A model generated the notes under the pieces. That model searched no databases and was not told where the DNA came from. It saw only the letters and a program-made list of their open reading frames with translations. Below, in pieces: positions 58,274 to 61,869 of a DNA stretch of 64,000 nucleotides; position 1 is the stretch's first letter; each line of letters starts with the position of its first letter. The stretch comes from Methylacidiphilales bacterium (lineage in GTDB: Bacteria > Verrucomicrobiota > Verrucomicrobiia > Methylacidiphilales > UBA1321): positions 1 to 64,000 of the forward strand of contig JAJSLI010000140.1 of assembly GCA_021272315.1 (NCBI GenBank). Reading direction: 5' to 3'. The position numbers and the translations under genes were made by a program.

Positions 58274-60544
58274 TCAGGCCAGATACGCATCCAACGCTTG
58301 GTCCCAAGCCTGATGGAGCGCGGCCACATCCCAGGCCAATTCGCGGGGCGCGGCACCGGAGATACTGACGGTGAGCTTGTCGCCACCGACGGTGCCAATG
58401 CGGCGGGCGGGCACGCCGTGAAGTTCGAGAAGAGAAGTCAGCGCGGAGGCATTCTCGGGGCAGGTTGTGACGAGGGCGCGGCTCTGCGATTCGCCCAAGA
58501 GGAGGGCGTCAAGACGACTGTAGGGTAGGTCGAGTTGGATGACAGCGCCGATTGGTTTCGCTCCGCTGATGGCGCATTCAGCCAGCGCGACGAGGAGGCC
58601 GCCTTCGGCGAGATCATGGGCACTGCGGATTTCGCCGAGGCGGATGGCGGCGCGGACCGCCTCGTGAAGTTTCTTCTCGCGCTCGAGATCCAGTTCGGGC
58701 GGGCGGCCCCGCTTGAGGCCGTGGGCTTCGCGGAGATAGAGGCTGGCTCCGAGTTCCTCGCCAATACTGCCGACCGCAGGACCACCGACGAGGAAGATGA
58801 TGTCGCCCTGATTCTGGAAATGGGAGGGAGTGATGTGCTTCGGATCGCGGATCAGGCCGACGATGGCGACGGTGGGCGTCGGATCAATGGGCCCGGCGGG
58901 TGATTGGTTATAGAGGCTGACGTTGCCGCCGGTCACGGGAATGTCGAAGGCGCGGCAGCCTTCGGCGAGGCCGTCGACGGCCTGCTGCAACTGGTAGAAA
59001 TTTTCCGGGTTGTGCGGGTTGCCGAAGTTGAGGTTGTCGGTCAGGGCGAGCGGTTCCGCGCCGGTCATGGCGAGGTTGCGGGCGCATTCAGCAACGGCGA
59101 TGAGGGCGCCGAGCTTCGGTTCCAGCGCGACGTAGTGGGCGTTGCAATCGACCGAGGCGGCGAGGTATTTCCAGGAGTTTCCGCCGGTGGGGACGCGCAC
59201 GACGGCGGCATCGCTGCCGGGCGCGGTGACGGTGCCGACGCGGACCATGTGATCGTACTGGCGGTAGACCCAGCGTTTGGAGGCGAGGTCGGGCGAGGCA
59301 AGAAGCTTCGGCAAGAGCGCGGTGAGGTCGGCCTCGGGCAGCGCGGCGAGGTCAAGCTTCTGGCGCCGGTTGAGGTCGGCGGGGCGGCGGGCGTCGCGTT
59401 TGTAGAGGGGCGCTTCGTCGGCGAGTTTCTTTGCCGGGATTTCGGCGACGGTGACGCCGTGGTTCTTGACGCGCATGAAGCCGTCGTCGGTGACGCGGCC
59501 AATGTGGGCGCAGGGGAGGTCCCACTTCTTGAAAATTTCGGTAACGGTTTTTTCGTGGCCCCGGCGGACGATGATGAGCATCCGCTCCTGCGATTCGGAG
59601 AGCATGATTTCGTAGGGCGTCATGCCCGGTTCGCGCTGCGGGACGAGGGCGAGGTCGATCTCGATGCCGCTGTTGCCCCGGCTCGCGGTTTCGCAGGTCG
59701 AACAGGTCAGCCCTGCAGCGCCCATGTCCTGCACACCGACGACGGCTTCGGGGTGCTGGAAGAGTTCGAGGCAGGCCTCAAGGAGAAGTTTCTCAATGAA
59801 CGGATCGCCGACCTGGACGGCGGGGCGGTCGGCCTTCGAGTCCTCAGTGAGGTCGCGCGAAGCGAAGGCGGCCCCGGCAAGGCCATCCCGTCCGGTGCGC
59901 GCCCCGACATAAAAGACGGGATTGCCCGCGCCGGTGGCCGCGCCACGGCGGATTTCGTTGGTTTTAAGCGTGCCGAGACAGAAGACATTCACCAGCGGGT
60001 TGCCGTCGTAGGAGGCGTCGAAATAGATTTCACCGCCCACTGTTGGAACTCCAATGCAGTTGCCGTAATGGGCGATGCCCGAGACGACGCCGGAGAGAAG
60101 GCGGCGGTTGGCCGCGGCATTGGGCGCACCGGGCCGGATGTCGCCGAAACGGAGCGAATTGAGCAGGAAGACGGGGCGCGCGCCCATGGTGAAGATATCC
60201 CGCAAAATGCCGCCGACGCCGGTGGCCGCCCCTTGGAACGGTTCGACCGCGCTGGGATGATTGTGCGATTCCATCTTGAAGGCGACGCCCCAGCCGTCGC
60301 CGATGTCGATGACCCCGGCGTTTTCCTCGCCGGCCTTGACCAGGACGCGCGGGCCGATGGTGGGAAACTTGCGGAGTTCAAGGCGTGAATTTTTGTAGGA
60401 ACAGTGCTCGCTCCACATCACGGAAAAGATGCCGAGCTCGGTGAAGTTGGGTTTGCGTCCGAGGATTTCCACGACGCGCCGGTATTCCTCGGGCGTGATG
60501 CCGTGCTTGGCGATAAGTGCGGGCGTGATGGCGGGATCAGGCAT
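58274..60544 (-). CDS. purL: phosphoribosylformylglycinamidine synthase large subunit
   Basis: '[43 protein letters not shown]', '[29 protein letters not shown]', 'VQDMGAAGL'. Confidence 0.97.
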
Positions 60545-60557
60545 GGTACGGATGGAA

Positions 60558-61115
60558 TTAATTTCTGAGGACACCGTATCGGGCCCTTTGCTCGCGAAAT
60601 CCGATTTTTGGGCGCGGAGTTTCCGGCGGGGGCTGAAGCAGCGGCAGGAGTTTCTGATAAATATCGCGCAAGGCAGCGTTGTGCTGGAGCAATGTTTTGT
60701 CGATTTCAGCCAATCGCTTCAGGATGGTTTCATTGGCTGCCAACACTTCGCGCTGCTGGATGAAGGCGCGTACAATATAGACGCTCATAGCAACAGCTTG
60801 GGGACTGTTCAAGACGTTGGCCGCCATGATGGCGCCATGCTCGGTGAAGGCGTAAGGGAGGTATTTTTGGTGTTGGCCGTGTCTTAAGGTCACAAATTGT
60901 GACCTTAAGATTTTAAGCGCATCTACTTCATCCGCAGTAAGTTGGAACATGAAATCTGATGGAAATCGCTCCAAATTGCGTTTAACTTGCTGATTAAGTT
61001 GCTTGGTTTCTATGCCATATAACTTAGCCAAGTCTGAAGCCAAAATGATCCGCTGACCTCTGATCGTGTGAATCAGTGATAGAATATTTTGAGTGGGAAG
61101 GGAAGAATCGGACAT
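60558..61115 (-). CDS. ORF6N-domain (phage-type DNA-binding) protein
   Basis: '[101 protein letters not shown]'. Confidence 0.93.
60883..60909. repeat. 27-bp palindrome inside ORF6N gene: CTTAAGGTCACAAATTGTGACCTTAAG
   Basis: Perfect apart from the central base. Confidence 0.9.
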
Positions 61116-61120
61116 ATTTT

Positions 61121-61147
61121 TTTAAGGTCGCAATTTGCAACCTTAAA
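61121..61147. repeat. 27-bp near-palindrome directly upstream of ORF6N start: TTTAAGGTCGCAATTTGCAACCTTAAA
   Basis: One mismatched pair; 21/27 identical to 60883-60909. Confidence 0.9.
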
Positions 61148-61158
61148 CGTTTGAAAAG

Positions 61159-61869
61159 TTAACCCGCCCGGGCCAGCGCTTCGCCTTGGCTGGCGAAGAT
61201 GGAGGTGAAGAGGCCAAGGCCGTCGTCGCTGCCGAGGATTTTTTCCGAGGCGCGTTCCGGGTGGGGCATCAGGCCGAGGACGTTGCCGGCGCGGTTGGTG
61301 ATGCCGGCGATGTGCCGCTGCGATCCATTCGGATTGGCGGCGGGGGTGTTGCGGCCCTGGGCATCGCAGTAGGTGAAAAGGACCTGCTTGTGTTGGAAGA
61401 GGGAATCGAGAGTCGCCTCGTCGGCGACGTAGTGGCCTTCGCCGTGCGCGATGGGGAGGCGCAGAACCTGTCCGGCGAGGTAATCGCGGGTAAAGCGGCT
61501 GGCCGGGTGCTCAACGCGCACCGGGATCGCCTCGCAGCGGAAATGGAGACTGGCGTTGCGGATGAGAATCCCGGGGAGAAGTCCCGCCTCGCATAGAATT
61601 TGGAACCCGTTGCAGATGCCAAGGACGGTCTTGCCTTGGGCAGCGGCCTTTTTTACCGCGGGCATGATGGGCGAGAAGCGGGCGATGGCGCCGCAACGGA
61701 GGTAATCGCCATAGGAGAAACCGCCGGGTAGAACGACAGCGTCGGCACCATTGAGCGAGGTCGCCTTGTGCCAGACATAGGCGGCTTCCTGCATCAGGAC
61801 GTTCTGGAGGACGTGGAGAACGTCCTGGTCGCAGTTGGAACCGGGAAATTGAATGACAGCCCAGCGCAT
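61159..61869 (-). CDS. purQ: phosphoribosylformylglycinamidine synthase glutamine amidotransferase subunit
   Basis: '[17 protein letters not shown]', '[25 protein letters not shown]', '[22 protein letters not shown]', '[11 protein letters not shown]'. Confidence 0.97.

Follow-up and report, generated by a model that had tools for sequence, protein, structure and literature searches.

Palindromes within ORF6N genes of many bacterial phyla are predicted to be operators of the proteins that these genes encode

In 205 of 209 distinct ORF6N genes, drawn from many phyla, the same loop of the coding sequence holds a near-perfect palindrome of 23–27 bp. Because residues of a predicted recognition helix and of a wing motif in the encoded protein predict the bases of this palindrome across the 205 genes, we consider it very probable that the protein binds the palindrome in its own gene; the internal palindrome behaves as a cognate operator, as the initial annotation of one such gene had suspected. 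The universality of the palindrome, the constraint on it at the DNA level, the two-part code that relates it to the protein, and the joint change of both at a single locus were all established by sequence comparison.

The gene that had been annotated lies in the window, a stretch of 64,000 nucleotides from a contig (JAJSLI010000140.1) of a Methylacidiphilales bacterium, and its product matches the PF10543 profile with 113.7 bits, above the curated cut-off of 27.8. No prophage genes were seen beside it; the setting is a purine operon (Table 1), in which purL begins 13 bp past the ORF6N stop codon, and the orthologue in another genome (G006) has the same ATG context. In the AF2 model of the protein, HTH helices are present and two strands enclose a loop (residues 69–87) that is modelled with low confidence (pLDDT about 56 at its centre). 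A PDB sequence search with the protein found no relative, and the best fold match to a solved structure was not significant (E 0.36); that the protein reads DNA is supported by the residue-base code described below. After the long C-terminal helix, a motif PP..PKxxIGF (60558–60660) is conserved in most relatives.

Table 1. Features of the ORF6N locus and their positions in the window
Feature	Position	Strand	Basis and remarks
ORF6N gene, 185 aa	60558..61115	-	PF10543, E=5e-33; AF2 model, mean pLDDT 87
Predicted fold of the ORF6N protein	HTH helices at residues 26–33 and 37–46; strands 56–58 and 88–90; long C-terminal helix 105–160		AF2
Internal palindrome (putative cognate operator)	60882..60910, centre 60896	.	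Residues 69–78; fits helix and wing codes
Recognition-helix codons (predicted)	60978..61007	-	Residues 37–46; specificity residues K38, Q39 and Q42
Wing motif H-GQHQKY, residues 79–85	60861..60881	-	Class GQH.KY, pairs with outer arm TTAA
Upstream near-cognate palindrome	61121..61147	.	Arms compared with internal site
purQ, upstream neighbour, same direction	61159..61869	-	ORF and sequence; purQ searched in genus
purL	58274..60544	-	Start ATG 60544; listed ORF begins at GTG 60574

The window holds two copies of the palindrome. The internal one, CTTAAGGTCACAAATTGTGACCTTAAG (60883–60909), extends to a 29-bp palindrome whose sole imperfection is the central base, and the upstream one, TTTAAGGTCGCAATTTGCAACCTTAAA, contains one mismatched pair and ends 5 bp before the ATG at 61115. 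These positions, the 5-bp gap and the identity of the two copies at 21 of 27 bases are all as the initial annotation had given them, and the internal copy does lie in ORF6N codons; only the residues needed correction, the full 29 bp in frame being codons 69–78. For a 21-bp pattern that fits both palindromes, the number of matches expected from 100 shuffles of the window was 0.00. When the whole genome was searched for further copies, as the initial annotation had advised, the only palindromic match with up to three mismatches besides this pair was a decayed ORF6N relic elsewhere (L004:730–770; G000:C121). A second such relic (L010; G000:C135:62160–62300) is also present, and in both of them the palindrome is the best preserved part.

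The palindrome was called, at an arm score of at least 7, in the loop that is flanked by the F.F strand and the FTE[HQ]G motif. Control stretches from the same coding sequences contained one in only 8 of 575 cases, and nearly all members of a first set of 80 relatives from many phyla have it at the equivalent place. An exact 17-bp core, GGTCRCAAWTTGYGACC, occurs at 59 sites in 289 genomes of the phylum, of which 51 are inside ORF6N genes, six are within about 200 bp of one and two are elsewhere; a reversed control pattern had no match in these genomes. In 49 genomes of other phyla, which were selected for holding an ORF6N gene, 44 of 53 core sites are inside ORF6N genes, seven are within 1 kb on the 5' side, and the last two resemble decayed ORF6N genes. 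Conservation in other ORF6N loci, on which the initial annotation had made its proposal depend, is overwhelming for the internal palindrome. In viral contigs the bare core is unspecific, since its matches (at least 120 stretches) lie mostly outside ORF6N genes and many resemble ordinary terminators; those in contigs L106–L225 often look like a bidirectional terminator (AAAAAGAGGTCACAAATTGTGACCTCTTTTT).

Genes of the palindrome-bearing subfamily are mostly chromosomal; of 50,697 phage records, only five contain one. The palindrome is also present in ORF6N copies on plasmids of Bacteroidota, Fusobacteriota, Spirochaetota, Campylobacterota, Legionella and Bacillota, though it is weak in Alistipes. 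Two Segatella copri plasmids of 4140 and 2955 bp (L321, L322) have a replication initiator and ORF6N as their only annotated genes. The window protein also matches the PADLOC model PDC-S05 (E=6.5e-49), which is a candidate phage-defence system only; in agreement with this label, ORF6N is flanked on Treponema pTS1 (L318:1453–2349) by genes for a DNA methyltransferase and a restriction subunit S, and on an Alistipes plasmid (L325:1504–2082) it directly precedes a putative phage abortive infection gene. Some metagenome contigs (L327, L331) end at or just past the ORF6N palindrome, probably as an effect of assembly.

Two or three palindromes are present in 27 of the 205 loops (L455, L059, L027 and L377 among them), and nearly always one of these fits the helix. 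The outer arms often differ while the cores match the helix, and the units have seemingly been duplicated and replaced over time.

Of the residues outside the loop, those in the predicted recognition helix share the most mutual information with the palindrome arms. With positions counted from the palindrome centre, residue 42 predicts base d4 in 195 of 199 genes with a symmetric d4 (E–C, 84; Q–T, 82; R/K–G, 29), an arginine at residue 39 accompanies C at d4, and residue 38 predicts d7 in 180 of 188 genes (K–C, 134; T with most other residues). Glutamate with C, arginine or lysine with G, and glutamine opposite A are classical contacts of proteins in the major groove. In a tree that left out helix and loop and used about 120 residues, 57 of 69 changes at residue 42 share their branch with a change at d4 (11.5 expected), as do 24 of 42 changes at residue 38 with one at d7 (3.3 expected); joint transfer of the block would also count as co-change.

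The outer bases d9–d12 are predicted by the wing motif in 119 of 122 genes, with 44 same-branch changes against 10.4 expected. Wings of the type WGG or GGRRY go with TCAA, GQH.KY with TTAA, GxN.KY with TTGA, HRD.RF with GGTT and MGLR with TCCA. The helix is associated with d4, d5 and d7 and with almost nothing beyond d8, while the wing is associated with d8–d13 and with almost nothing at d2–d6; this clean partition makes simple hitchhiking of neighbouring DNA an unlikely source of the signal. The 157 genes compared have 62 distinct half-sites. Paralogues within one genome were not found to avoid each other's half-sites, and orthogonality of such paralogues is unsupported.

Both parts of the code can be followed at one locus, as six species of the genus have the ORF6N gene between purQ and purL; a seventh species has lost the gene and palindrome relics remain. 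Residues 38, 39 and 42 and the internal core are KQQ with GGTCACAA, RHQ with GATCACAA, KKQ again with GGTCACAA, KRE with GGTCGCAA, and FRE and YRE both with CATCGCAA; GQH.KY wings go with TTAA and GxN.K wings with TTGA. All six orthologues fit both the helix and the wing code, and all six have kept the internal palindrome.

The upstream copy is intact only in the window genome and one other, decayed in two orthologues and absent from two. In the latter two the gene starts 1–2 bp after the purQ stop codon, which leaves no room upstream, so that only the internal site could be the operator. The pair of palindromes seen in the window is consequently no rule, being lost or decayed in four of the six orthologues, and across the family only 23 of the 205 genes have an upstream palindrome. 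These fit the d4 code of their own helix in eight of 23 genes, no better than chance (p=0.32), and we rejected them as strict cognate operators; their outer arms do resemble the internal arms of the same gene (p=0.008). In the window, 19 of 22 half-site positions (d2–d12, both arms) match between the two copies, the upstream one differing at d4 on both arms and at d5 on one, and it is probably a weaker auxiliary site. The RNA hairpin that the initial annotation placed over the ribosome-binding region can form from this copy, but a fold of this strength is ordinary at such a composition (z -1.8), and G-U pairs are not tolerated across the family.

What is conserved in the loop appears to be neither the peptide nor an RNA structure. 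When peptides were held fixed and codons redrawn synonymously, 4.42 of 10 arm pairs were expected to match, whereas 9.54 were observed. Two reading frames run through the palindrome, one in 183 genes and the other in 22, and give unrelated peptides (LRSQIATLK, EVVTNCDHL), and 96% of the pairs at d3–d12 are Watson-Crick pairs though most positions vary; G-U pairs are no commoner than A-C pairs (18 and 23 of 1920 pair cells). Symmetry that is kept despite varied sequence and two frames, with G-U pairs unfavoured, indicates conservation of a DNA site and not of a peptide or an RNA hairpin. The view that the operator is constrained to encode part of a conserved domain is thereby largely reversed: the peptide of this low-confidence loop varies freely while the DNA symmetry is kept, and the conserved-looking motif SQ[IF][AV]T of the Pfam domain is largely the footprint of the putative DNA-binding site. 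A strong hairpin is predicted at the internal site (-23.7 kcal/mol, z -4.9), which speaks for control of the mRNA by attenuation, RNase or translation; yet an Rfam search gave no match, specificity residues of the protein predict the palindrome bases, and the pair statistics led us to reject an RNA hairpin, which we regard as highly improbable. We attach just as little credence to a symmetry without function, produced by template switching at quasi-palindromes: the arms are indeed more perfect than those of most known operators, but such a process leaves unexplained both the same position in 205 of 209 genes and two frames and the change in step with residues whose codons are about 90 bp distant.

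That the palindrome serves as a site of recombination, insertion or domain shuffling, as the initial annotation had offered as an alternative, is improbable. Units do duplicate, as the 27 loops with two or three palindromes indicate, and several decayed copies end near the palindrome; when such truncations were inspected, several were contig ends and the rest were decayed genes with various breakpoints. No sign of such a target was found: coupling of the flanking parts across the palindrome is no weaker than elsewhere (a weak comparison, as the windows are short), the gene stays at one locus within a genus, and recombination does not predict the helix and wing codes. Somewhat less unlikely, though still unlikely, is that the protein binds its site for another kind of self-recognition, such as the start of replication or segregation, gene marking or phage defence. 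The known targets are almost exclusively ORF6N genes, which leaves hardly any regulon, and PADLOC lists the family as a defence candidate. Moreover, the DNA-binding protein lambda O binds repeated sites (iterons) within its own gene that are not needed for the activity of the protein (PMC4488673). Lambda O, however, initiates replication, and its oriLambda has four 19-bp repeats in direct orientation together with an A-T-rich segment (PMC4488673), whereas ORF6N genes carry one to three palindromes, usually a single one, and do not have direct iterons with an A-T-rich unwinding segment. Single chromosomal genes in ordinary operons, as between purQ and purL across a genus, also speak against these other roles, and domain searches found no replication or nuclease domain in the ORF6N protein.

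We return to the internal palindrome as an operator for a dimer of the gene's own protein, read by two elements and used for autorepression, a reading that we hold to be reasonably likely. A dimer of ORF6N would bind the palindrome of its own gene, with the recognition helix reading the inner bases (d4–d7) and the wing the outer bases (d8–d13), and the bound protein would block elongating RNA polymerase, so that the gene would be repressed whatever its promoter; in the window genome the near-cognate site before the ATG would help repression. Physical binding, the geometry of the dimer and repression by a roadblock are what we infer from the comparisons. Autorepression is most likely as the simplest use, in our analysis, of a site in the path of RNA polymerase with hardly any other targets and with the precedent of C.Kpn2I. 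A strong roadblock would also lower expression of purL, a cost that this model does not explain. As the site sits between the codons of both reading elements, in a flexible loop that accepts nearly any peptide, specificity and target are inherited together, and this position would let a moving or recombining gene take both along.

A familiar operator within a coding sequence is lacO2 in lacZ. This operator and O3 of LacI are single cases, and neither encodes any part of the specificity region of its regulator. At O3, LacI regulates itself by a roadblock (PMC3711431). Closer to the mechanism proposed here is C.Kpn2I, which has a site inside its own coding region at which it blocks elongating RNA polymerase; the authors of that study propose that many regulators may work in this way, and their search covered 50 bp on either side of annotated starts (PMC6237814). 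The ORF6N site is likewise within the gene's own coding region, and binding to it is predicted. C.Kpn2I differs in belonging to an unrelated family in a restriction-modification system, while the ORF6N site is well inside the gene, at the codons of the wing, in nearly every member of a pan-bacterial family and follows a two-part code. No C-protein families were among the matches of the ORF6N protein, which resembles C.Kpn2I in proposed mechanism and not in family. Phage ORF6N antirepressors (PF10543, PHROG 4792) belong to the same domain family as the window protein and are named antirepressors; no internal cognate operator is described for the mostly chromosomal subfamily in the open-access papers searched, and none of these papers was found to link ORF6N with a palindrome. 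Mechanisms of this kind have precedents; a family-wide self-encoded operator with a two-part code is undescribed as far as the searched open-access literature shows.

We think it likely, from these comparisons, that ORF6N is a pan-bacterial family of self-addressed DNA-binding proteins in which helix, operator and wing form one portable cassette. If so, specificity and target change together, the DNA recognition code is readable, and the family holds ready-made sets of differing repressor-operator pairs. Nature would in effect have run the experiment for dozens of specificities, each gene disclosing both a protein and its operator; the recognition code can be put to a direct test, and many repressors with matching operators could be drawn from the family. 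This would be a first concrete handle on a family that is widespread but has no other label than 'ORF6N domain' or defence candidate PDC-S05, and it offers a model for how an operon-hopping gene may retain its own regulation.
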